A stretch of DNA of 64,000 nt from a virus. The translations under genes were made by a program, and so were the position numbers. Location: positions 239,641 to 303,640 of IMG/VR virus record IMGVR_UViG_3300046542_000291. One strand, given 5' to 3'. A model generated the notes under the pieces. That model saw only the letters and a list, made by a program, of their open reading frames with translations, searched no databases and had not been told where the DNA came from. Shown here one piece after another: positions 1-11,945 of the stretch. The first letter of the stretch is position 1; each line of letters starts with the position of its first letter.

Positions 1-1899
1 GGCGTTCTCGATACCTGTGATGAATGCCAGTTGTTCGAACAGCCCTTTGATGAAGGCATCTGCATCTTCAGGGGTGGAAGTACCACGAGGACCGACGTTG
101 CTCAACCAGTCCAGTGGACCGCCATTACGCAGAATGGAATCATGCAGACGCTGTTGTGCATCGCGGTGGGTGGCCTTGAACAGGTCGTTGTTGCCGCTGA
201 GGGCGCGCTGAATGTCCAGCAGGCGTTTCGGGACAACACCATCGAGCTTCTGGGTGAATAGCGACTCAGGGAACTTGTACACGCCCGGGCCACCAAAGAT
301 AGATTTCTGCATGTGTTCGATACGCTCTTTTTCAAGTGGGCTTTCGTACGTTGCGGTTGGATCGTAGTTGACCGATTCCAGGAAGGCTTCGGCCAGGTGT
401 TGGTCAGGAACATTGAGATCGTTCCAGACGTTGATACCCACACCACGAGAACGCAGTTCTTTGATACCGGGATCGGTATCTTCCTGTTGTTTACGGCTAC
501 GGCCCAGAGGACCAGGCAAATTAGCAGCCGCCAGATCGGTTGGGAGAACCATAGGTTCCTGGTTGGTGATGTGATGACGTTGGGCAGCTTCTTGCCGTTG
601 GACGTGAGTCAGGCAATCACTGACATCCAACTGGCCCAGGTTGTCACCCTCGTATACGGAATCGAAGTTAGCCTTGGCATGCCGACGGGTCAGACCTTGG
701 ATCTCTTCGGCTTTAAGGGTGTTCAGCAGGTTGGTGGTAGTGTTGCTGTAGGTAATCTCACCAGTCTTTGCGTTGTACAGCACACCTTCGCCATGCAACA
801 TCGGCAGGCGAGTCACCATAACAGCCAGCAGGCGGTTGATGATTTCCTTGGCGCAGTTGGAATGTTTCGGGGTGTACTGGTGTTCGGCTTTGATGTACTT
901 AGCCAGTTGTGCTGGGTCGTACTGGTGACGTTCGCCGGTTTCATCGGTGACGTGGAAACCGATCAGGTTGAGGGGAGGTTCTGGTTGGTCATCTTGAAGT
1001 GACATGTCAGGAGCCTTGGGCAGTTTGGATTTGTATTCGCCGAGAGTTGAATGGCGGATGATGTTGTAACCATTATCCTGGAGGATGACCTGACAGCCAT
1101 CTTCTTTATCGTTGGCCAGAAGCGTTGCCATAATTTCGTCGTATTTCTGGTTGACCCAGTACGACATGTTGGCTGGCCAGAGGGTAGGAACCCCTTCGTG
1201 GATACCGTTTATACGGTCGTTGTAGTACATGGGCTTACCGTCAACATCAATGACCTTAATGTAAAGGTCGGTGCTGTCGATTCTGGGGTTAGCGCCCATG
1301 GCCTTTGCACCATCACCGATATCGCCAAGATCAGAGAACTTTACGAACTGCATATCTGATTCCACGAATGCGTGTTCCGGATGCCGATTAGCCATCATCT
1401 TGCGGACGTAATCTTTGGCATAGTCGGTGGCGGCCATGTTGCCCCCATTCATCACGAGCGGCTGGTATTGATGGCTGATACGGCCCAGTTGCCAATCGGC
1501 TAGCAGGTAGAGGTGATCTTCTTCGCCCCCTACATGTAGAACAACTGCATTGTCCGGCTTGTAGTCACGTGCCATCTGGCGATAGACGTCACGGACGCTC
1601 ATGATAACCAGTTCGTGATTGAGCCCAGGCGCAAACCAGATGTCCTTACCCACGTGTTCTGGGTAATGTGCAACAATGAGGTCATGCAGTGAACGGAGAT
1701 ACGCCCAGTTATCGTAACGGATATCGGGTTGATTCCATTTTACGATCTGGTTGTTGAGGTTGGGTTTACCAACAGTACGGTCCTCCAACCAGTAGTCTTT
1801 ATCGCCAATGCGAATGACTGGGGAGGTTGCATCACGAACGGACTGGTAGCCGTTCATCTTACCGAGGATCAATTCGCCTGGGTTAGTAATCTTGCTCAT
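1..1899 (-). CDS. Large unrecognised phage protein, C-terminus cut by window edge
   Basis: An open frame of 633 codons runs from an ATG at 1899 to the left edge with no stop, so the C-terminus lies outside the window. The start follows an AGGAGT ribosome site about six bases upstream. The protein begins MSKITNPGELILGKMNGYQS and looks soluble: I see no signal peptide or membrane segment. It is rich in charged and aromatic residues. I do not recognise a family. It is followed upstream by a small gene in the same direction and could be a virion or replication-associated protein; that is a guess. The rightward frames over this stretch are shadows. Confidence 0.85.
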   Translation of the reverse strand, partial: MSKITNPGELILGKMNGYQSVRDATSPVIRIGDKDYWLEDRTVGKPNLNNQIVKWNQPDIRYDNWAYLRSLHDLIVAHYPEHVGKDIWFAPGLNHELVIMSVRDVYRQMARDYKPDNAVVLHVGGEEDHLYLLADWQLGRISHQYQPLVMNGGNMAATDYAKDYVRKMMANRHPEHAFVESDMQFVKFSDLGDIGDGAKAMGANPRIDSTDLYIKVIDVDGKPMYYNDRINGIHEGVPTLWPANMSYWVNQKYDEIMATLLANDKEDGCQVILQDNGYNIIRHSTLGEYKSKLPKAPDMSLQDDQPEPPLNLIGFHVTDETGERHQYDPAQLAKYIKAEHQYTPKHSNCAKEIINRLLAVMVTRLPMLHGEGVLYNAKTGEITYSNTTTNLLNTLKAEEIQGLTRRHAKANFDSVYEGDNLGQLDVSDCLTHVQRQEAAQRHHITNQEPMVLPTDLAAANLPGPLGRSRKQQEDTDPGIKELRSRGVGINVWNDLNVPDQHLAEAFLESVNYDPTATYESPLEKERIEHMQKSIFGGPGVYKFPESLFTQKLDGVVPKRLLDIQRALSGNNDLFKATHRDAQQRLHDSILRNGGPLDWLSNVGPRGTSTPEDADAFIKGLFEQLAFITGIENA

Positions 1900-1926
1900 G
1901 GTGAAACTCCTAGTGATTGGATTGAA

Positions 1927-2214
1927 TTAATCGAGGTGATTTTTGAGCATATGGAACAGGTTCCAGTCTACCGAGTAGACACAGATCTGTGGTGCACTGA
2001 AGCGCATAACGGAAACAATTGTTTCTGGACTGGCTTGCTCGGCATTAACCAGATCACGATAAACGTAAGCAACCTTGGCAGTTGCTTCCCTCTCGTCTTC
2101 GGTTGACCAGGTAGCTACCATCCAGTCACCTTCAGGTGGCTTCACCTGCCCGTCGTTATGGAGGAACTTACTTGCCTTGTCGCCTTCTTTAACCATGATC
2201 AAATAAGTGGCCAT
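1927..2214 (-). CDS. Small hypothetical protein (95 aa)
   Basis: The ATG at 2214 has a clear AGGAG six bases upstream. The product is a soluble, mixed alpha/beta-looking protein with no Cys cluster and no membrane segment. It lies 27 bases upstream of the large gene at the left edge, so the two are probably co-transcribed. A perfect 10-bp hairpin and a TATATTAG element sit upstream, suggesting its own leader. No family recognised. Confidence 0.75.
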   Translation of the reverse strand: MATYLIMVKEGDKASKFLHNDGQVKPPEGDWMVATWSTEDEREATAKVAYVYRDLVNAEQASPETIVSVMRFSAPQICVYSVDWNLFHMLKNHLD

Positions 2215-2269
2215 TTGTAACTCCTATTGGGGGATTAAAAGCATTCGACTCTATTAAGAACAAGGAGGC

Positions 2270-2293
2270 GTGTAGTATCCTTAGATACTACAC
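2270..2293 (-). promoter_or_regulatory. Perfect hairpin in the 5' leader of the 1927-2214 gene
   Basis: GTGTAGTATC and GATACTACAC form a perfect 10-bp stem around a four-base loop, about 56 bases before the start codon. No U-tract follows in the leftward direction, so a leader structure fits better than a terminator. Function is inferred from position only. Confidence 0.5.
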
Positions 2294-2297
2294 TTAA

Positions 2298-2305
2298 CTA
2301 ATATA
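2298..2305 (-). promoter_or_regulatory. Possible degenerate early promoter
   Basis: Leftward TATATTAG differs by one base from the TATATTAC core seen at six other places here. It lies about 84 bases before the start at 2214. The GATTGAAAGC upstream box found at the strong copies is missing, so this is a weak call. Confidence 0.3.
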
Positions 2306-2374
2306 CGAAATAAAAGCCCTCCTCCTTTGACTTTAGTCACCTGTTCACATTAGGTAACGCAGCCGGGTATTTTA

Positions 2375-2941
2375 TCAAACTTCTTCCAGAACCAACTTGC
2401 CATCTTTGATGAACAACCAGGCATAGCAGTCCAAGCCCAAAGAGCGCAATGCACCCGACTCGATCAGCTTGATTGGATTGATCATGTGGTGAGCGAAAGT
2501 CTCACCTAAGACCAGATTCAGTTTGACTGTACTCTCGCCCATCCATTCAGTAGAGTGAACCACATAGCGGTCATTACCGTTGATCACGAAATGAGACGAT
2601 GCCTTGGTGGGATTCTTGAACACCAGCTCGTTTGCTGAACCTACCGCTACCGAAACATCCAGGTGATGAACACTCATCTCTTCCAGAGCTTGGGTAAGCT
2701 GACTGTGGTAGAACATCTGCAGCTCAGGAGCTTTCAGCATTACACTGAGTGGACTCTTGGCTTTTGGAAAGGCCAGGTAGAAGGCGTCGTCCGAGACGGA
2801 CTCGACAATGATTGGGGTGACTGCACCAGCATTCCAGCTGACCAGCATCTTCACAGTGGCCTTACGCAGGTCCTTCGAATCGGTTTCTTGGCCAGTGGTA
2901 TCAGCTTTATCGTGATAGTGTTGCGTTAACAGAGCATGCAT
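2375..2941 (-). CDS. Hypothetical protein (188 aa)
   Basis: The ATG at 2941 is preceded by AAGGA about nine bases away. The product is a soluble protein with alternating hydrophobic stretches, probably alpha/beta, and an acidic C-terminus (LVLEEV). No motif recognised. It is the last gene of the leftward accessory unit before the leader region of the next gene. Confidence 0.75.
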   Translation of the reverse strand: MHALLTQHYHDKADTTGQETDSKDLRKATVKMLVSWNAGAVTPIIVESVSDDAFYLAFPKAKSPLSVMLKAPELQMFYHSQLTQALEEMSVHHLDVSVAVGSANELVFKNPTKASSHFVINGNDRYVVHSTEWMGESTVKLNLVLGETFAHHMINPIKLIESGALRSLGLDCYAWLFIKDGKLVLEEV

Positions 2942-2977
2942 GAATCCATTCCTTTTAGGTGTATTAGATGTTAGGGG

Positions 2978-3226
2978 TTATTTAACGAGGTGGACGTTGT
3001 AATGGCGAAGCTTGTTGCACCGATCGCACTTACGAACGAAGACAACATGGGTTACGTACTTCCCAGCGTTGTCGATGGAGGTGAACGTACCATCACTGCG
3101 TTTAAGAACCGGGATGCGTTCGATGAGTTGGTACTCATGATTACACAAACCCAGCAAACTGCGGAACCATGGGATCAACCCTTTACTGGATGGCTGCCCA
3201 CCGCTTGCACAATCGAAACTTGCCAT
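2978..3226 (-). CDS. Zinc-ribbon-like small protein, copy A
   Basis: An 82-aa protein. I chose the ATG at 3226 because GGAG lies six bases upstream and the preceding stop is adjacent. Four metal-ligand candidates are visible: the block LGLCNHEY and, about 40 residues later, RKCDRCNKLRHYN. The same pattern occurs in the next two genes upstream (3228-3407 and 3410-3583), so this is the third copy of a tandem family. Compared with the other two it has an extra N-terminal extension of about 22 residues. A role in nucleic-acid or protein binding is inferred from the ribbon-like Cys pattern only. Confidence 0.8.
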   Translation of the reverse strand: MASFDCASGGQPSSKGLIPWFRSLLGLCNHEYQLIERIPVLKRSDGTFTSIDNAGKYVTHVVFVRKCDRCNKLRHYNVHLVK

Positions 3227-3227
3227 G

Positions 3228-3407
3228 CTACACTCCACGTGCCAGATGCTTGTGATTCTTCATACAGCCACAGCGGGTACAGCGCATCGTGAAGACTACG
3301 CCGATTACGTGCGGGCCGTCCGAATACGTTTTGTATTCGTTACCTTGCCAATGCACTACCCACTTGTGATTGCAGAGACCCAGCCAATGCCGAAGTCTTC
3401 TGTACAT
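3228..3407 (-). CDS. Zinc-ribbon-like microprotein, copy B (59 aa)
   Basis: The frame MYRRLRHWLGLCNHKW... runs from the ATG at 3407 to TAG at 3228, one base before the start of copy A. It contains LGLCNHKW and then MRCTRCGCMKNHKHLARGV, matching the Cys/His spacing of its neighbours. Its start lies three bases after the stop of copy C, so translation is probably coupled. It is shorter than 60 codons and easily missed; the shared motif and tight packing are the main support. Confidence 0.8.
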   Translation of the reverse strand: MYRRLRHWLGLCNHKWVVHWQGNEYKTYSDGPHVIGVVFTMRCTRCGCMKNHKHLARGV

Positions 3408-3409
3408 GG

Positions 3410-3583
3410 TTACCCCTTGACCGCGTGGTTCTTTAGGTTACCACATTTCTGACAACGAAGTGTGATGACCGTTTTGCGCTTGTAGACCTCACCGTCAAAG
3501 CCGATGTAGCGGAAAGTATCCCGCTCGTACTCGGCCCAGAGGTGAGGACACAAACCCAACTTCTTCCGAATCCAGGCGATCAT
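3410..3583 (-). CDS. Zinc-ribbon-like microprotein, copy C (57 aa)
   Basis: The frame MIAWIRKKLGLCPHLW... starts at 3583, where ATGA overlaps the stop of the gene upstream, and ends with TAA at 3410. The C-terminal block LRCQKCGNLKNHAVKG aligns with copies A and B, as does LGLCPH near the N-terminus. No strong ribosome site is seen, so translational coupling to the 281-aa gene is likely. Function unknown; the Cx(n)CxxC layout suggests one bound zinc. Confidence 0.8.
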   Translation of the reverse strand: MIAWIRKKLGLCPHLWAEYERDTFRYIGFDGEVYKRKTVITLRCQKCGNLKNHAVKG

Positions 3584-4425
3584 TCTTTCGAGAACTCGAA
3601 GGTGTAACCCTGGTCGGTGAACTCTTTGTAAAGCAGAGTGCCTTCTTTGGAATACACCGTGATACCTTTGGCAAAGCCATCGGCAAACGCGGCTAGTGCA
3701 GACATGGCTTCTGCTGCAGTGCGGTAAGCATGTCGAGTCTGACCATCTGGACGACCACGGTAATCTTCGTACAGATCCAGGTAGAAACAGATTACCTGCT
3801 TCGACTTGTCTTCAGCACGACCATAGACGGCGGTGTAGCCGTAGTCCGACAGCCTGTTAGTGACATTGATACGACGCAGCTCGAACTTGGTCAGTTCTTT
3901 ACCGGTTGGCGTGGGTGCCGTTGGGTTGACGAATTGATCCGGTGTACGACCCAGGTCGGTAGGTTTGTCGTATTCACGACTGACCCGTCGTTTCTGCATG
4001 GCGTCCAGCGCTCGCAACACATCCGTTTCAAAGAAGTATTCCGGGCCATGTGGTAGGAACGCGTCTTCAAACTCCGACATGTATTCCAGGACGATTGCTG
4101 GAACTGCTGGTCGGCCCACAAATGTCTTGTCAACCAACTGAATGCGGAAGTGGTTGCTTCCGACGTACAATGGGTATTCGATGCCGTCCAACAACATACG
4201 AGCGAACATCGTCCGGAAACGATCAGCACCATCTGACACAGTGACCGGTGGTGCACTGATCAAACCTTTGCAGTGATTAAACCAAGCCGCATTGGCTTCT
4301 TCGGTGTGAATGAATTGCTCGTACAGTTGACAGACAAGTGCCTGAAGTGTAGCCAGGAAGGTACCTGGAAGCTCCGGCTGGATAATACCCAGTAGGGTTG
4401 AGGTGTTCTGGTCAAGTTTGATCAT
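3580..4425 (-). CDS. Hypothetical protein (281 aa)
   Basis: Starts MIKLDQNTSTLLG at 4425. It is soluble, with a mid-region rich in Phe/Tyr and an internal linker (PTAPTPTGKE, about residue 170), suggesting two domains. The stop overlaps the start of zinc-ribbon copy C by four bases. No family recognised. It lies in the early accessory region and may act on the host, but nothing in the sequence says how. Confidence 0.8.
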   Translation of the reverse strand: MIKLDQNTSTLLGIIQPELPGTFLATLQALVCQLYEQFIHTEEANAAWFNHCKGLISAPPVTVSDGADRFRTMFARMLLDGIEYPLYVGSNHFRIQLVDKTFVGRPAVPAIVLEYMSEFEDAFLPHGPEYFFETDVLRALDAMQKRRVSREYDKPTDLGRTPDQFVNPTAPTPTGKELTKFELRRINVTNRLSDYGYTAVYGRAEDKSKQVICFYLDLYEDYRGRPDGQTRHAYRTAAEAMSALAAFADGFAKGITVYSKEGTLLYKEFTDQGYTFEFSKE

Positions 4426-5026: not shown

Positions 5027-5359
5027 TTAAGCCGCTTTTTCCGCAGCTTCTTTCTTGGCGGCGCGTTCAGCGTCATGCTGGTCGCAACGCTTTTGCAGAT
5101 GAGCTTTCATCGCGGTTTGAACGAGTTCACGCTCAAATGGAAAATCCATCAGTTGAATGATGATGGACAGGCCGACACCGAGGCTCCAGCCAGTAGACGA
5201 TACGTCCTTGCCTTCCAGGTGTTCTTTGTAGCTTTCATCGATGGCATTGATGCCTTCTTTGATTGCCATTTTGACTAGGGCTTCTTTTGCAGCCTTGCCC
5301 AGGAAGTAGACGCCAACACAGCTTGCAGCCACAACCGCAATTTTAGTGAGAGTGTTCAT
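5027..5359 (-). CDS. Membrane-anchored small protein (110 aa)
   Basis: Begins MNTLTKIAVVAASCVGVYFL, a helix anchor of the MNxxxKIA type shared with 5788, 7773 and 8130. A second weakly hydrophobic stretch (WSLGVGLSIIIQL) lies near residues 58-70, and the C-terminus is a charged Ala/Lys/Glu helix. A tetraloop terminator follows. Function unknown; probably an early inner-membrane protein. Confidence 0.78.
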   Translation of the reverse strand: MNTLTKIAVVAASCVGVYFLGKAAKEALVKMAIKEGINAIDESYKEHLEGKDVSSTGWSLGVGLSIIIQLMDFPFERELVQTAMKAHLQKRCDQHDAERAAKKEAAEKAA

Positions 5360-5431
5360 GGTGTTTCCTCTTTACTTGGTTTAGGTTTGTTACAAATGGA
5401 CAAAGTGTCCAGGGGTGGAGAAAATAAAAGA

Positions 5432-5449
5432 GGAGCCCTTTCGAGCTCC
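5432..5449 (-). terminator. Terminator of the 5460-5744 gene
   Basis: In the leftward transcript GGAGCTC-GAAA-GGGCTCC forms a 7-bp stem with one G-U pair and a GNRA loop, followed by TCTTTTATTTT. Confidence 0.75.
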
Positions 5450-5459
5450 CCACCATTGC

Positions 5460-5744
5460 TTAGTCGGCAATGCTATTAAAGTAGATCTCGAAACGCTTGT
5501 CAAGCGCTTTCAGCGTTGCCGCCATCCACACTTTGTCACGGGCTTCGTCCATGATATCCTTCGCTTCAGAGCGCAGGGTTTCACGGATGGTGCCGACCAG
5601 GTTCTTGCGTTTGCGGATATCTTCCTGCAGCTCGTTGAGCTTGGTGAAGACATCGTTGCACTTGTATTCGTCGTAGACGAGTTGAACAACAACTACGCCG
5701 GTGGCGAACAGTGCGGTTTTGAATGCGCCGGAAATGAGGCCCAT
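5460..5744 (-). CDS. Membrane-anchored small protein (94 aa)
   Basis: I chose the ATG at 5744 because AGGAG lies seven bases upstream; the frame stays open further but without a ribosome site. Residues 6-23 are hydrophobic (GAFKTALFATGVVVVQLV). The rest is a charged helical region, likely coiled coil (LNELQEDIRKRKNLVG). It has the same architecture as 5027 and 7773. Function unknown. Confidence 0.78.
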   Translation of the reverse strand: MGLISGAFKTALFATGVVVVQLVYDEYKCNDVFTKLNELQEDIRKRKNLVGTIRETLRSEAKDIMDEARDKVWMAATLKALDKRFEIYFNSIAD

Positions 5745-5787
5745 GGTGTTACTCCTTGCTATTGAGAGAGGGTTATGAAACGGTGGA

Positions 5788-5982
5788 TTATTCGGAGAAA
5801 ACAGCGGCCATACCAACGAGCGCGCCAGCCGTAAGAGTGGCAACGCCCAGGATGATTTTGTTGTCGCGCTTGACTGGTTCACCGTCAATCAGTACGGTGG
5901 TTTTATCTTCCAGCAGTGTCCAGCCAGCAGCCAGAGCAGTACCGGAAACAGCTACGAATGCAATGCGGGTGAAAAGGTTCAT
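5788..5982 (-). CDS. Two-helix membrane protein (64 aa)
   Basis: Two hydrophobic segments (about residues 5-21 and 43-60) flank a polar hairpin with DGEPVKRDNK. It resembles the next gene upstream (5989-6180): both have an N-terminal helix, a short V-[DN]-G-[EK]-x-[VL] loop, and a Gly/Ala/Val-rich second helix. The pair looks like a local duplication. Topology is probably hairpin-like in the inner membrane. Confidence 0.75.
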   Translation of the reverse strand: MNLFTRIAFVAVSGTALAAGWTLLEDKTTVLIDGEPVKRDNKIILGVATLTAGALVGMAAVFSE

Positions 5983-5988
5983 GTTGGA

Positions 5989-6180
5989 TTACCCGAAGAT
6001 GGCTTTGATTGCGGCAGAGACGCCGATGGAGGACATAATAGTGCCGACGGCAACGCGGGCGTTGTCATCGAGCTCTTTGCCGTTTACACGGACTTTAGTA
6101 GCGTTGTTCAGAATACGTACACCAGCGTAAGTGGTGGCGCTACCAACAGCCAGCAACGCAGCACGAGCGATAAGGGACAT
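5989..6180 (-). CDS. Two-helix membrane protein, paralogue of 5788 (63 aa)
   Basis: Begins MSLIARAALLAVGSATTYAG. The middle loop VRVNGKELDDNARVAVG matches the neighbour's VLIDGEPVKRDNKIILG in length and polarity. AGGAG precedes the start at 6180. It ends six bases before the neighbour's start. Confidence 0.75.
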   Translation of the reverse strand: MSLIARAALLAVGSATTYAGVRILNNATKVRVNGKELDDNARVAVGTIMSSIGVSAAIKAIFG

Positions 6181-6207
6181 GGTGGAACTCCTAGTATTTG
6201 AATTGGG

Positions 6208-6369
6208 TTATTTGACCAGCAGCATTTCTTGACCCGCAGGTCCGATGCGATGACCGATGATGGTCTCCGCTTTAACTTGTACAACGGGTTCTTTTGGGGA
6301 AGCAAACAAGTTAGCTGCGCCAAGGGAACCGATGGTTACGCCGATGATCAGGAACAGTGCGTTTTTCAT
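6208..6369 (-). CDS. Small membrane or exported protein (53 aa)
   Basis: The frame MKNALFLIIGVTIGSLGAAN... starts at 6369, with GGAG eight bases upstream, and stops at 6208. A hydrophobic N-terminus (residues 4-20) ends near Ala-Ala-Asn and may be an anchor or an uncleaved signal. A polar tail of about 30 residues follows. Short but well supported by its ribosome site and position between coding neighbours. Confidence 0.7.
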   Translation of the reverse strand: MKNALFLIIGVTIGSLGAANLFASPKEPVVQVKAETIIGHRIGPAGQEMLLVK

Positions 6370-6428
6370 GAGTGGTACTCCGAAGAAGTTGATAGATAAA
6401 AAGAAAGAGGTTGTGTTAAGAATAAAAA

Positions 6429-6460
6429 GGACGAGGATACTCTTTCGAATACCCTAGTCC
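6429..6460 (-). terminator. Strong terminator of the 7.1-6.5 kb unit
   Basis: A 14-bp stem (one mismatch, two wobbles) closes on a GAAA loop and is followed leftward by TTTTTATT. A second palindrome, AGGATCA-G-TGATCCT, at 6461-6475 touches the stop of the gene before it. Confidence 0.8.
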
Positions 6461-6474
6461 AGGATCAGTGATCC

Positions 6475-6894
6475 TTATTGTTCGATGATGCAGGTGTTAC
6501 CCAGCAGACCGAACACGTGATTCGGGTTGGTGTTGTCGCAGTCGTTGCGGTATTCCGGATGCTCGTGGTAATCACCATCGATGTTGATGACCTCGGCGTT
6601 GAATGTTGCCGCATCATTGAACTCTTCGCCGAAGACTACCAGCATGACCCGACGCAGAACGAATTGCTTCGTTTCACTGTCCAGGTCGTAGCGACGTTGG
6701 GAACGAGCCCCGTCGTCAAAGGCAATGGCGAACTCAGCGTGGTCGCGTTCTACGATGCAGCTAATCGATTGTACTCGAGCTTCATCGGTCATACCGCTGA
6801 CGGTGAAGAACGGAGACTGCTTACCGAACATGATGTTACACACCAGCACTCGGCGAGACAGAACGCGTTCGACTACCTTTGGTGTGTTCTTCAT
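6475..6894 (-). CDS. Hypothetical protein (139 aa)
   Basis: Starts MKNTPKVVERVLSRRVL at 6894, overlapping the stop of the 59-aa gene upstream by four bases. It is soluble and acidic toward the C-terminus, with four to five Cys, none in a clear zinc pattern. The stretch RRVMLVVFGEEFNDAATF resembles ERICFRAFGQEVTFAGIF in the 7382-7771 gene, so the two may be distant paralogues. Function unknown. Confidence 0.75.
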   Translation of the reverse strand: MKNTPKVVERVLSRRVLVCNIMFGKQSPFFTVSGMTDEARVQSISCIVERDHAEFAIAFDDGARSQRRYDLDSETKQFVLRRVMLVVFGEEFNDAATFNAEVINIDGDYHEHPEYRNDCDNTNPNHVFGLLGNTCIIEQ

Positions 6895-7070
6895 ACGTTC
6901 TCCTCAACCACTACGTCAACGATGGCCGAAACGATGCAACGGATTGCAACAGTAGCCACGACGTTGATGGCAACGACAGTGGCCGCGAACTTGACCGCGT
7001 CTTGCCAGCTCAGGTCAGTAGTGTCTTTCGAGTTCCGAGTTGGACGGGTGGATCTAACTACTGCAGTCAT
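6891..7070 (-). CDS. Small membrane protein (59 aa)
   Basis: The frame MTAVVRSTRPTRNSKDT... starts at 7070, with AAGGAAA upstream, and stops at 6891 inside the next start (ATGA). A single Val/Ala-rich hydrophobic segment spans about residues 28-53, with a short acidic C-terminus. Probably a one-pass inner-membrane protein with its basic end in the cytoplasm. Confidence 0.7.
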   Translation of the reverse strand: MTAVVRSTRPTRNSKDTTDLSWQDAVKFAATVVAINVVATVAIRCIVSAIVDVVVEENV

Positions 7071-7126
7071 GACGATTTCCTTTTTTCTTGAATTGGAGTT
7101 TTACAGCGGGGTGGGTACAACCTGGG

Positions 7127-7318
7127 TTATTCGCCCAGGATGGTGTCAGCGATCTTGTTACCCAGGAAGCTGCCGAGAGCAGCACAGCCGTAGACAGCTG
7201 CACCGAACGCCAAGACAGTACCGCCAACAACAGCGATGCAGATCACTTTGTCTTTGGTGGTGATTTCAGCTGGGGTGGGTTTGATTTCTTCAGCGGTTGC
7301 ATTGTTTTCAGTAGCCAT
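7127..7318 (-). CDS. Small membrane protein (63 aa)
   Basis: A polar acidic N-terminus (MATENNATAEEIKP) is followed by a hydrophobic stretch (about residues 25-50, VICIAVVGGTVLAFGAAVYG) and a short tail. It is the first gene after the early promoter at 7351-7383, so it should be made immediately after infection. Confidence 0.78.
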   Translation of the reverse strand: MATENNATAEEIKPTPAEITTKDKVICIAVVGGTVLAFGAAVYGCAALGSFLGNKIADTILGE

Positions 7319-7350
7319 GGTAATTCTCCGATTTACTGGGGTTTATTCAT

Positions 7351-7383
7351 GAAAGTAATATAGCGTTTAAAATGCTTTCAATC
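7351..7383 (-). promoter_or_regulatory. Leftward early promoter
   Basis: Read leftward it has GATTGAAAGC, an AT-rich spacer with TTTAAA, then TATATTACTTTC. Near-identical copies lie at 8486, 9392, 10112 and 49049, each 30-110 bases before a leftward start. The core equals the TATATTAC element known for phiKZ early promoters. Confidence 0.85.
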
Positions 7384-7771
7384 AGACTTCGTGTTTCCAC
7401 CCATCGAACAACAGAGCATCATGGGTGATACTGCGGCTATCTACCGACAGACCGAAGCCATCGAAGATACCCGCGAAGGTGACTTCCTGACCGAAGGCTC
7501 GGAAGCAGATGCGCTCGAAGATGAACTTATCCACTTCGGTGAGAAGAGGTTGGACCAACTCTTCCTTTTCACCGTTCATGAACTCGACGATAATGTTGGC
7601 GTAGTCACCCTGATTCTGGACAGTCAGTTTCTGGATGATTACGTTGTGGTGTTTCATCTTGGCGAACACACAGCGTTCACCGAAGTAGTTACCGAGCTGA
7701 CGCAGGCCAACAGTCAGGCCGCGCAGCTTGGTAGTATTGGGGGCTTTCGGATCGTACGTGTTGTGGGACAT
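7382..7771 (-). CDS. Hypothetical protein (129 aa)
   Basis: I chose the ATG at 7771, two bases after the stop of the gene upstream; AGG precedes it by a few bases. The protein is soluble, with a central beta-rich region (HHNVIIQKLTVQNQ) and a Phe-rich C-terminal half. Its last codon and stop overlap the early promoter that serves the next unit. Possible distant paralogue of 6475-6894. Function unknown. Confidence 0.75.
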   Translation of the reverse strand: MSHNTYDPKAPNTTKLRGLTVGLRQLGNYFGERCVFAKMKHHNVIIQKLTVQNQGDYANIIVEFMNGEKEELVQPLLTEVDKFIFERICFRAFGQEVTFAGIFDGFGLSVDSRSITHDALLFDGWKHEV

Positions 7772-7772
7772 A

Positions 7773-8087
7773 TTACACCTGTGCTTTGAAGTTGTCGATA
7801 GAGTGAGCAATGCGTTTGTTGCATTCCTCGTTGAACCAGTTACGGTTAGCCCGAGTACCAGCGATCAGCAGGTAGCCTGCCTTACGGGCACCGTTGGTGG
7901 CTTCGTGAACCTGGAAGGCTGCTGGAGCAACCGATTGCTTACCCATGAAGATACGCAGCTCGTCATCGAAGTTCTTCAGAGCGGTATCCAGCTTGTTGTT
8001 GGCACGGCTCTTCTGCCATTCGTCCAGAGCAACTTCGGCGGCAACACAAACAGCAACAACCAGAGCTATTTTAACGAAAGAGTTCAT
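7773..8087 (-). CDS. Membrane-anchored small protein (104 aa)
   Basis: Starts MNSFVKIALVVAVCVAAEVA. The anchor closely matches MNAFVKLIVGATVLVAG of the next gene and MNTLTKIAVVAASCVG at 5027. The remaining 85 residues form a charged, probably helical, cytoplasmic or periplasmic domain with a basic C-terminus. Function unknown. Confidence 0.8.
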   Translation of the reverse strand: MNSFVKIALVVAVCVAAEVALDEWQKSRANNKLDTALKNFDDELRIFMGKQSVAPAAFQVHEATNGARKAGYLLIAGTRANRNWFNEECNKRIAHSIDNFKAQV

Positions 8088-8129
8088 TTACACGTTTCCC
8101 TATTTTCTTTGGATTGGAGGTGGATCGAA

Positions 8130-8450
8130 TTACAGATCGATATCGTAGGTCAGGTAATCGGCGTAAGTGCTGATTACCGCATTGCGATAGTCTTCGGCGA
8201 ACGAGTAAGTGTCACCAAGATCGTTCATACCACAATCGATCAGATGAGCGGTGGCTGTAGCCCACTTGGCCGAGGATACTTCGGGGTGCTCGCGGCTCAG
8301 TGTAGTATCGCTATCCAGGATGTCGGAGAGACGGGCTGGGAGCTTCTTCATCAAAGCGCTGTGACGACGGTGAGTGTTAGCGAAGTCGATACCTTTCCAA
8401 CCAGCAACCAGTACGGTAGCGCCAACAATCAGTTTAACGAATGCATTCAT
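8130..8450 (-). CDS. Membrane-anchored small protein (106 aa)
   Basis: N-terminal anchor MNAFVKLIVGATVLVAG, then a soluble tail with HRRHSALMKKL and a Tyr/Asp-rich C-terminus. It is the first gene after the early promoter at 8486-8518. It shares only the anchor with its neighbours; the tail is unrelated. Function unknown. Confidence 0.8.
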   Translation of the reverse strand: MNAFVKLIVGATVLVAGWKGIDFANTHRRHSALMKKLPARLSDILDSDTTLSREHPEVSSAKWATATAHLIDCGMNDLGDTYSFAEDYRNAVISTYADYLTYDIDL

Positions 8451-8485: not shown

Positions 8486-8518
8486 GGAAGTAATATAGCT
8501 GTTTAATTGCTTTCAATC
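8486..8518 (-). promoter_or_regulatory. Leftward early promoter
   Basis: Same layout as 7351: GATTGAAAGC, AT-rich spacer, TATATTACTT. It ends about 36 bases before the start at 8450. Confidence 0.85.
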
Positions 8519-8538
8519 TAGTTTAAGTAATGCGTCAT

Positions 8539-8562
8539 AAAGCCACTCCGAAGAGTGGCTTT
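8539..8562 (-). terminator. Terminator of the macrodomain gene
   Basis: AAAGCCACTC and GAGTGGCTTT form a perfect 10-bp stem around CGAA (UUCG leftward), followed by the tag ATGACGCATT. Confidence 0.8.
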
Positions 8563-8570
8563 AGAACGAC

Positions 8571-9053
8571 TCACTCGACAACTTCTTCTTGCATCCATGG
8601 AGGGTAGATTACCACCATCTCGTTGGGCATCTGCTCAGAGGCCTGTTTGATCATTTCGGATACCAGAGGGAACTTCAGATTACCGTTACCGCAACCCAGA
8701 GGTGGAACAACGATCTTCCATTTCGGATTGATCTCACCGTCCTCTTCACCGACGTGCTCTGTCATCCAGTGCAGTCCTTCGGCGATGTAGTCGTAGCGAG
8801 AGTCATTCCGCCAGTTCTCTTTGGTGGGGAACATCATGTAATGCTTGCCATCTTCCGCTTGGTAGATGGCTGGATTACCGATGGTGATGATTTTCATTTT
8901 GCAGTCATGCTTGTAGCGTTTGAACAACTCTGGGAACTTGATCGCGAAATTCTCCGCCAATCCCTTGCCCATAGCACCGACTGTGTTAACTGTGATGAGG
9001 TAAAGATCACCTGACTCTTGAAAGATGTCCTTACCGATTACGAAATTAGCCAT
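8571..9053 (-). CDS. DarG-type macrodomain protein
   Basis: 160 aa, the length of a stand-alone macrodomain. Ligand-binding motifs are visible in order: VNTVGAMGKGLAENF (residues 22-36), FPTKENWRNDS (75-85) and VPPLGCGNGNL (116-126). These match the DarG/TARG1-like branch, whose members bind ADP-ribose and remove it from nucleotides or proteins. DarG is the antitoxin that reverses DNA ADP-ribosylation by DarT, and DarTG is known as an anti-phage defence. An early phage copy could therefore protect phage DNA; that role is inference. No DarT-like toxin gene is adjacent. An O-acetyl-ADP-ribose or Appr-1''-p hydrolase role is the alternative. Confidence 0.85.
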   Translation of the reverse strand: MANFVIGKDIFQESGDLYLITVNTVGAMGKGLAENFAIKFPELFKRYKHDCKMKIITIGNPAIYQAEDGKHYMMFPTKENWRNDSRYDYIAEGLHWMTEHVGEEDGEINPKWKIVVPPLGCGNGNLKFPLVSEMIKQASEQMPNEMVVIYPPWMQEEVVE

Positions 9054-9123: not shown

Positions 9124-9291
9124 TCAAGACTTCAACGTGTCTTTCAATTTAATGCCGGCCAGAGTCAAACCAATAGCGGTTGTGACCAAGGCCAACCCCT
9201 GGGTGGCGTACTTCAACACCATCGTGTTATGGTGCATTTTCGCCTGTGCTGCCTTACGTTCTTCGTCGGTTTTATACGAGCTATGGAACAT
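9124..9291 (-). CDS. Small membrane protein (55 aa)
   Basis: I chose the ATG at 9291 because GGAG lies eight bases upstream. The polar N-terminus MFHSSYKTDEERKAAQAKMH is followed by a hydrophobic segment (about residues 29-47, GLALVTTAIGLTLAG). It is the first gene after the early promoter at 9392. Confidence 0.7.
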   Translation of the reverse strand: MFHSSYKTDEERKAAQAKMHHNTMVLKYATQGLALVTTAIGLTLAGIKLKDTLKS

Positions 9292-9339
9292 GGTTGAAAC
9301 TCCGGGAAAAAGAAATCGTAATGCGGATAAAGGAAGATA

Positions 9340-9362
9340 CCCGAGCCTCAAAAGAGGCAGGG
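9340..9362 (-). promoter_or_regulatory. Hairpin in the early leader
   Basis: GCCTC-AAAA-GAGGC with an outer CCC/GGG pairing lies between the promoter at 9392 and the start at 9291. It could be an attenuator or a 5' stabiliser. Confidence 0.4.
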
Positions 9363-9391
9363 GTATTAGGGGACTACTGCTGGTTATACAC

Positions 9392-9424
9392 GAAAGTAAT
9401 ATACACTTTAAAAAGCTTTCAATC
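9392..9424 (-). promoter_or_regulatory. Leftward early promoter
   Basis: GATTGAAAGC, a TTTTTAAA spacer, then TATATTACTTTC, matching the copies at 7351 and 8486. Confidence 0.85.
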
Positions 9425-10111: not shown

Positions 10112-10144
10112 AAAAGTAATATAGGCTTTTAAATGCTTTCAATC
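10112..10144 (-). promoter_or_regulatory. Leftward early promoter
   Basis: GATTGAAAGC, an ATTTAAAA spacer, then TATATTACTTTT. The upstream box also encodes the last residues and stop of the 10129-10503 gene. Confidence 0.85.
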
Positions 10145-10550: not shown

Positions 10551-11945
10551 TCAAGTGACAGTTGGACCCAGATCCGTTTTGGGAACGTCTTCGCCATCCT
10601 TTCGGTTGATGAAGATAGCAAGCGTGACAATTCCGGGATATCTTGAAGCCTTAGCACTGTTATCCGCCGGCTTACGCTGTTCGTCTACACCTAATAGCAC
10701 ACCGTAGTATATTTCTACTAGGTTCCCGTTCACCGACATGAACTTCACAGGCATGCCTGGATAGAGCAAGTCTGTATCGCCATGCCACCATTCCATCTTC
10801 ACAAACTGTCCACGGCGTTTAGCCATTTCGGAGTAATGCTTGAATGGATTGGAAGTTGCTCTGTCTACTGCCCAACGGATGTTGTTGTAACCCGTCTGGA
10901 GAACTTCTGTCCCTACTTCGAAAAGATTGGATGCACGATCCACCAAGGTGCGGTTATCCTTCTCCACACCGAATTCCCCTAAGAACTTCGTCACATCACT
11001 GAAGCGTAGCCCGTTACCCTGCGTCAGGCTTTGTGCAAGCCCTTTGTCGAGGCTCTTGGCGTCACCTGTGGCAATGACGGTGATATCGTTCTCTCGCACC
11101 TTATACGTGCGCTCAGCGCCTTGGTAGCGATCGTTCGGTACGTTGATGACCTTGAGGGTCTTCGCATTCTTTCGATAGCGCAACGTATCGTAGAGGGGAT
11201 AGATGTACCAGTACTGGTCTTGTAGATACCGGCCGAGTCCAGTGGCGTAAACACCACCTTCGTCATTCTGCAAGTAGGCTGGAATATCCTTGATCATGAT
11301 CCCATCGGGGAAGTTGATTTGTTTTCTGATCTCAGTGTTAAAACCATCGACCGTATTGATCCCGAGGATGCGTTGGTGTTCCGCACCTTTCTGGTTCTGT
11401 AGCGTTTCCGCAAGAGCCGACTGCATGGCCATCATGGTTGTGCACTGGCGCAGTGTTGTGCCGTACGACATCATGTTGACACGGTAAGCCGATTCTTCAA
11501 TGAGCTGAAGAGCGACGGGAATCATTCCGACCTGGTTCATCGCTTCGCGCGATTTCAACTGAGAGCTCTTACCCGACAAAGACATGTCCTGTTGGGTGAT
11601 GAGTACAGCTCTGTAACGAATCGTTTCAATCTGCCGTGTAGGGTCGGGAGAAGTGGTGTTGATCTTCAGGGGAACGTACTTCACTTCCATAACCAAGTTG
11701 TCTCGGTTAGGGACGATGTCGTACTGGTAGTCCCCCATTAGGTACATCACTTCAACCATCCGGTGGTCGGCAAACTGTTTCCCTGCGTAATCACGGTTGA
11801 GGTGGTAGAAATCGGTGCGCATGGGCGTCAACCACTGGCCTTCCTTGACCATGAGGTTTAGATCGATACGCCAATTGGAGTTCGAATCCCCGGACGCTTT
11901 AATCTCATCCACTTCTCGCATGATTTGCGTGCTGTCAATGGACAT
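10551..11945 (-). CDS. Probable virion structural protein (464 aa)
   Basis: I chose the ATG at 11945 because GGAGG lies upstream and the start meets the preceding stop. The protein is soluble and has no membrane segment. It is the last of four leftward genes (15585 to 10551) packed end to end after the inner-body-like genes, a position held by virion genes in phiKZ relatives. No catalytic motif recognised. The virion role is inferred from position. Confidence 0.75.
   Translation of the reverse strand: MSIDSTQIMREVDEIKASGDSNSNWRIDLNLMVKEGQWLTPMRTDFYHLNRDYAGKQFADHRMVEVMYLMGDYQYDIVPNRDNLVMEVKYVPLKINTTSPDPTRQIETIRYRAVLITQQDMSLSGKSSQLKSREAMNQVGMIPVALQLIEESAYRVNMMSYGTTLRQCTTMMAMQSALAETLQNQKGAEHQRILGINTVDGFNTEIRKQINFPDGIMIKDIPAYLQNDEGGVYATGLGRYLQDQYWYIYPLYDTLRYRKNAKTLKVINVPNDRYQGAERTYKVRENDITVIATGDAKSLDKGLAQSLTQGNGLRFSDVTKFLGEFGVEKDNRTLVDRASNLFEVGTEVLQTGYNNIRWAVDRATSNPFKHYSEMAKRRGQFVKMEWWHGDTDLLYPGMPVKFMSVNGNLVEIYYGVLLGVDEQRKPADNSAKASRYPGIVTLAIFINRKDGEDVPKTDLGPTVT

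Follow-up and report, generated by a model that had tools for sequence, protein, structure and literature searches.

A stand-alone DarG-type macrodomain of a giant Pseudomonas-type phage is probably a defence-countering remover of ADP-ribose tags

Judged from its sequence, a stand-alone DarG-type domain of a giant Pseudomonas-type phage is probably a defence-countering remover of ADP-ribose tags. It is encoded on the minus strand at 8571-9053 (ATG start, 160 amino acids plus stop) of the window, the whole analysed stretch of 64,000 nucleotides, which comes from a virus record of 310,396 bases. We consider it rather likely that the gene is expressed early and specifies a DarG-branch ADP-ribosyl hydrolase consisting of one domain, which undoes a host ADP-ribosylation, or an ADP-ribose signal, aimed at the phage. 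The protein would bind ADP-ribose in its conserved cleft, and K78, acting like K80 of DarG, would cleave the bond between C1'' of the distal ribose and the acceptor. Free ADP-ribose would be released and the ADP-ribosylation or ADP-ribose signal made by the host against the phage would be undone. DarT-type thymidine-DNA adducts may be one acceptor among several candidates. Our computational results concern family, fold, residues, an early-type promoter, a conserved position and a search for DarT that found none; hydrolase activity, expression timing and role we infer, counter-defence being the best guess for the role. Macrodomains can also act as mere binders, which is a point against a hydrolase.

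The open reading frame (ORF) is real. Pfam Macro (PF01661) scores the 160-aa protein with 30.5 bits against a cut-off of 22, which places it in the superfamily. The DarG profiles of NCBIfam (NF048014; E 5.9e-40, 137.6 bits) and PADLOC (E 4.2e-40) match as well, and tblastn against phage RVTF4 gives E 3e-70. Scores so far above chance rule out a chance ORF and confirm the DarG-type macrodomain that the earlier note had read from the letters alone. The product is a single macrodomain with no further domain: the NF048014 match covers profile positions 7-152 of 338, the macrodomain half only, and the full-length cut-off of 250 bits, which spans macrodomain and C-terminal part, is not reached. At E < 1e-3, 266 of the 50,697 phage records searched contain a homolog. 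The nearest among the matches listed come from phiKZ-like jumbo phages of Pseudomonas (RVTF4, 70.8% identity; phiKZ gp104, 59.9%). By its 60% identity and its place, the gene is classed as the ortholog of phiKZ gene 104 (PHIKZ104), whose family is known and uncharacterised. A nucleotide search for phages with the macrodomain region gave no match, and a single-protein viral scan with the macrodomain returned 1 locus. Some names in this family mislead: the RVTF4 ortholog (L004:5001-5477) is called a 'cysteine-type peptidase' and PHROG 335, to which the macrodomain protein belongs, a 'phosphatase'; the SEGD1 macrodomain (L016:3001-3345) is unannotated. Gene 104 is unmentioned in the Grad-seq paper, and in the open-licence literature we found nothing that places PHIKZ104 in the DarG branch or tests its activity. 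Its DarG-branch placement, a charge shift and a NARP1-like context are what this analysis adds.

By profile, modelled fold and catalytic residues, the 160-aa protein is assigned to the DarG branch of macrodomains. A profile built from eight phiKZ/Noxifer-type proteins and run against solved structures scored 114 bits with MtbDarG, 101 with TaqDarG and 89 with a DarT-DarG fusion, followed by TARG1 (26), Poa1p (15) and a Thermus macrodomain (13.9). The structure model (42-row alignment, mean pLDDT 93) gave Z 14.8-23.3 over all listed macrodomains, with MtbDarG (Z 23.3) and TaqDarG (Z 22.9), both at 1.5 A, ahead of TARG1 (18.9), Poa1p (18.3) and YmdB (15.1). Foldseek likewise ranked DarG entries at the top and TARG1 next. 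DarG therefore comes out best, ahead of TARG1, in the profile test that the earlier note had proposed and in the fold comparison alike. Moreover, the NCBIfam DarG profile matched 19/19 phage proteins of alignment A1.

The residues point the same way. Ligand contacts of TaqDarG have been named and its K80A exchange abolishes activity (PMC5179494). We aligned the protein to the TaqDarG structure 5m31 and counted conservation over 93 rows. T20, N22, K29, T79, K80 and W83 of TaqDarG are identical in the phage protein (T21, N23, K30, T77, K78, W81), as are G117, G119, N120 and G121 (G120, G122, N123, G124). With the G-rich loop G120-C-G-N-G124, K78 and N23, the residues expected of the DarG branch are present. 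The codons of the three catalytic-site residues are:

8820..8822, minus strand: K78, equivalent of the catalytic K80 of TaqDarG in the 5m31 alignment (93/93 rows)
8985..8987, minus strand: N23, equivalent of TaqDarG N22 (93/93 rows)
8811..8813, minus strand: W81, equivalent of TaqDarG W83 (90/93 rows)

G120 and G124 are invariant like K78 and N23, and W81 is tryptophan in 22/22 phiKZ/Noxifer and 40/40 DarT-linked rows. At the site of DarG K29, the 19 phiKZ-clade rows have A (13), K (4) or T (2), and at that of G119 they have G (10) or A (9), the window protein having K and G. Such variability of two helper residues within the clade also weighs against a hydrolase. The claim that all ligand-loop motifs are intact can be kept for the catalytic and phosphate loops, and needs a minor qualification for the pocket, where V31, Q34 and H82 are replaced by L32, N35 and N80, and N8-L9 by D9-I10. 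SCO6735-type macrodomains have a glutamine in place of the lysine (PMC9411070), so the window protein stands on the DarG/TARG1 side. It shares the catalytic lysine and the fold with TARG1 (C6orf130), and differs from it at the catalytic pair K84-D125: the lysine is there, but its loop G120-N125 offers no acidic equivalent of the catalytic partner D125 (PMC6397177).

Two hallmarks of a DarG antitoxin, the DarT operon and the second domain, are missing. The DarT profile (PF14487) found no match in the phage's own record. Of 38 related phage records none passed its cut-off, and one reached a sub-threshold 16.4 bits. This rules out a simple DarTG operon in the phage and upholds the view of a macrodomain without its toxin. 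PF14487 is present in 32 of the 45 short viral contigs bearing the nearest non-phiKZ DarG relatives (near-duplicates and fragments were left out of both sets), and in 32/32 of these DarT-positive loci a DarT-size ORF ends at or just before the start of DarG. A home-made DarT profile, run over 124 loci, added eight viral loci and 17/22 bacterial loci (14 of these 17 matches are weak, 23 to 45 bits) and matched no phiKZ-type locus. DarT-linked proteins mostly have 280-385 aa versus 157-176 aa in the phiKZ type, and the C-terminal part of DarT-linked DarGs is missing from the 160-aa protein. A predicted DarG-branch hydrolase without toxin is thus an apt description, since DarG is closest in profile and fold, K78 and N23 are invariant, no DarT was found and the C-terminal part is absent. 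A scan of genome contigs with phage-derived patterns returned mostly Clostridia, and in the plasmid matches the ten commonest genera do not include Pseudomonas. The Clostridia loci L103-L121 have a DarG-like protein of ~290 aa followed by a ~345-aa ORF with weak similarity to DarT (23-45 bits); with the DarG-like gene first, this is possibly a DarTG variant of reversed order.

The gene lies in a variable island, in agreement with the accessory position claimed before. The boundaries of the island are a gp101-like virion gene and, just beyond the window's edge, a divergent DnaB ATPase gene (PF20307, 515 bits). The upstream boundary is:

10554..11945, minus strand: gp101-like virion gene (the stretch used as query), conserved island boundary, syntenic in 28/28 loci

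This gene is found upstream of the macrodomain in 28/28 phiKZ/Noxifer loci (four are repeats of phages in the set) and in 0/9 other macro-bearing phage loci. Among seven gp101-bearing jumbo phages sampled outside the clade, two (FLC9, pPa_SNUABM_DT01) have a Macro match and five (EL, PCH45, PS1, N1M2, Aphrodite1) have none; the macrodomain gene is not core to the wider gp101-bearing group. It follows virion structural genes, and for this reason position alone is no pointer to early expression.

Promoters give that pointer. The core TATATTAC has the published early-promoter consensus of phiKZ behind it (PMC7058600). The features around the macrodomain are:

10116..10123, minus strand: early promoter core at the island head, from core search and context comparison
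9396..9403, minus strand: phiKZ-type early promoter core TATATTAC, exact match, its context comprising TTTTTAAAG upstream and GTG downstream
9337..9366, minus strand: leader hairpin (-18.5 kcal/mol for the folded 49-nt stretch, z -5.6)
9124..9291, minus strand: 55-aa ORF without a family match, located between early promoter and macrodomain
8538..8563, minus strand: UUCG-loop hairpin just past the macrodomain stop (z -7.3; no T-tract)
8490..8497, minus strand: early promoter core TATATTAC from exact core search, serving the genes downstream of the macrodomain

The core at 9396-9403 is 350 nt upstream of the macrodomain start. The window has 6 sites of TATATTAC against 0.47 expected, all on the strand of the gene; four lie inside the island and have a longer context in common. 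Over 29 loci, the window included, 74 cores are on the gene's strand versus 1 on the opposite one. An exact core is found upstream of the macrodomain within 900 nt in 14/29 loci and within 1200 nt in 21/29. PS119XW and PhiPA3 (L034 is a second PhiPA3 copy) have one-mismatch cores instead of exact ones, L039 has no core, and the four Noxifer-type loci have none anywhere in the stretch covered. Scans for sigma-70 promoters and terminators gave nothing above shuffles. The hairpin at 8538-8563 is a possible 3' end of the unit, whose order would be promoter, leader hairpin, 55-aa ORF, macrodomain and strong UUCG hairpin. The earlier note had called the gene early. The exact core on its strand bears this out by sequence, and early transcription itself may be expected from such cores.

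A tree of 93 rows, built after removing rows >93% alike along with eight named repeats or fragments, unites the 19 phiKZ-type rows with the 3 of Noxifer type in a single clade (support 99/99). Its stem has a length of 1.35 and the DarT-linked rows lie outside; a host DarG captured recently looks unlikely on this tree, in which support for the deep branches is weak and several long branches come together. The net charge of the macrodomain core, a crude measure in which the phiKZ clade counts as one event, has a median of -5 in the 19 phiKZ-clade rows (range -7 to -2; window -4) versus +3 in the 40 DarT-linked rows (-4 to 8), and +3 in 31 other rows. Close to the cleft loops the difference is smaller (median 1 vs 2, overlapping). 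For the surroundings of the DarG cleft a predominantly positive charge has been described, perhaps to accommodate single-stranded DNA (PMC5179494). With the positive charge lost in the phiKZ clade, RNA, protein and soluble substrates are worth weighing beside DNA.

Elsewhere in its genome the phage encodes a putative NAD+-rebuilding pair, a NAMPT/Namat-type gene (PF04095) adjoined by a PRPP-synthetase-like gene, which we class as NARP1-like by sequence:

G000:C1:99500-105500 (locus L132), 1752-3536 and 3547-4422, minus strand, outside the window: NARP1-like pair with aromatic-type clamp positions

PF04095 matches the phage's own record and, with it, 11/17 phiKZ-clade records, as well as 0/3 Noxifer-type records and 1/7 other macro-bearing phages. 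phiKZ, 201phi2-1 and PhiPA3 have the macrodomain and no PF04095 match, and Noxifer likewise has no PF04095 match. The NAMPT/Namat-type protein scores 372 bits to the phage Namat structures 9W5X/9W5W and 316 bits to another Nampt-named entry, further NAMPT entries reaching ~135-140 at best. The selectivity clamp of Namat is given as R40, F392 and Y396 (PMC12774641); the window phage's protein has R, Y and H there. Three relatives have Y/Y, F/F and Y/Y at the two helix positions, and the clamp loop motif was found, among these four, only in the window's phage. The PRPP-synthetase-like gene adjoins the NAMPT/Namat-type gene in 4/4 genomes examined, and the same pair was seen in RVTF4, PS119XW and Psa21. 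In PS119XW an RNA ligase gene lies two genes from the NAMPT gene.

What the enzyme acts on is the point at which the readings part. The strict proposal of an anti-DarT protein, which would remove ADP-ribose from DarT-modified thymidines of phage (and host) DNA, we regard as possible and on the whole doubtful. DarG is the nearest family by profile and fold; the TaqDarG macrodomain alone rescues from DarT, K80A abolishing the rescue (PMC5179494), and the related stand-alone macrodomain SCO6735 also rescues (PMC9411070). Phage anti-DarT factors of another kind exist in the form of AdfB (PMC11481870). Of that proposal the DarG branch, the lack of a DarT partner, the early-type promoter and the island have stood, but a DarT target does not follow from them: the lineage of phiKZ forms an acidic clade of its own on a long stem, not nested in the DarT-linked DarGs, and the K29 equivalent is not lysine in 15/19 clade rows versus lysine in 40/40 DarT-linked rows, K30 being kept in the window. 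Furthermore, a nucleus-forming phage presumably shields its DNA from cytosolic enzymes, and DNA adducts may therefore matter less. Such acidity would suit a protein that cuts or soaks up small ADP-ribose derivatives (e.g. Thoeris-type), with the NARP1-like pair, where present, rebuilding NAD+, a reading we hold tentatively and think unlikely. In the literature phage Macro domains in general are favoured to target soluble, low-molecular-weight ADP-ribose derivatives, DNA adducts being allowed for a few (PMC9503650), and the phage glycosidase RyDEP feeds NARP1 in this way (preprint PMC13232231). The frequency of the NAMPT/Namat-type gene in the clade fits; however, the pair is not positionally linked to the macrodomain gene, it would be wanting in phiKZ, 201phi2-1 and PhiPA3, and the protein retains the DarG-type catalytic lysine and W81. 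Improbable, in our estimate, is a recycling scheme in which the macrodomain strips ADP-ribose from macromolecules or immune signals and the genome's NARP1-like pair rebuilds NAD+ from it. The macromolecules would possibly be cytosolic RNA or protein, because the phage genome is shielded; a paper on reversible RNA ADP-ribosylation on uracil has reportedly been published. If the scheme were true, the phage would both erase the host attack and recover the cofactor consumed.

Control of a phage-encoded ADP-ribosyltransferase by the macrodomain, as antitoxin or off-switch, appears very improbable: jumbo phages often carry such transferases (PMC7824862), but the searches for DarT described above speak against it, and a search with PF03496 gave no match but carries little weight, its control likewise giving none. 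We give hardly any credence to an ADP-ribose-1''-phosphate phosphatase of RNA repair, suggested by the 'phosphatase' or Appr-1-p names of many records (PHROG 335 among them), by the Goslar note, which says Poa1p-like, and by the RNA ligase gene of PS119XW, since Poa1p lies far behind DarG (15 vs 114 bits). KptA, which makes the precursor, is absent in 8/8 clade records searched (control positive), which rules out a tRNA-repair role via a phage KptA; the host could supply KptA. NADAR was also absent in 8/8 records.

The preferred reading, a DarG-branch hydrolase that undoes host ADP-ribosylation or an ADP-ribose signal, has close and distant parallels. PHIKZ104 and its orthologs 201phi2-1 gp167, PhiPA3 gp108 and Psa21 gp123 resemble the window protein in size, in their place after the virion genes gp99-gp100-gp101 and in early promoter cores nearby, the best-matching relatives having 59.9-70.8% identity; the window protein differs in its lysine at the K29 site, as in only 4/19 clade rows. 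With DarG of DarTG it has in common the fold, the catalytic K/N/W, the phosphate loop and the best profile and structure matches, but it has no DarT neighbour and no C-terminal domain and is acidic, in a separate clade. AdfB of phage ICP1 is a phage protein that blunts an ADP-ribosylating defence; in contrast, it acts by binding DarT, is 77 aa long, and the account of it does not describe a hydrolase (PMC11481870). RyDEP, as a phage enzyme that releases ADP-ribose from which NARP1 rebuilds NAD+, is comparable, but it is a RyR-domain protein inside a NARP1 operon with its substrate shown (preprint PMC13232231).

The general idea of phage Macro domains as a counter to ADP-ribose-based immunity is already in print (PMC7824862, PMC9503650), the latter discussing their targets. 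Here the label 'macro domain' of a published phiKZ gene is sharpened to the DarG branch. Direct tests thereby come within reach in a model phage whose genes can be knocked down. Antisense (ASO) knock-down of PHIKZ104 in PAO1 did not change PFU and CFU substantially and lowered ChmA weakly; the authors suggest that such genes matter under stronger competition or where hosts have other defences (PMC12571901). With plaque and colony counts unaffected, a need for PHIKZ104 in PAO1 is not shown. The question raised is whether a nucleus-forming phage meets ADP-ribosylating defences, and on which molecule. According to a 2026 review, Tad1 is the only anti-defence protein so far described in jumbo phages (PMC13282480), and a second one would therefore count.

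The island around the gene varies in size, from ~12.5 kb here and ~9.5 kb in phiKZ to ~2.3 kb in EL, ~0.4 kb in PS1 and almost none in N1M2. It consists mostly of small ORFs, with one ORF of 914 aa in the window's phage. Family scans of the ten neighbouring ORFs gave one PHROG of unknown function and nothing in Pfam. By eye, three minus-strand ORFs (2978-3238, 3228-3407, 3410-3583) have a zinc-ribbon-like pattern in common, G-L-C-x-H ... C-x-x-C, and the trio resembles a tandem duplication within the early island. ORFs on the minus strand at ~5027-8450 (those at 5027, 5788, 5989, 7773 and 8130), again by eye, have similar hydrophobic N-termini, as if a small membrane protein family had multiplied in the island. 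Noxifer (MF063068.1) has, besides its syntenic macrodomain, a second, sub-threshold macrodomain match of 18.5 bits at 239864-240226.
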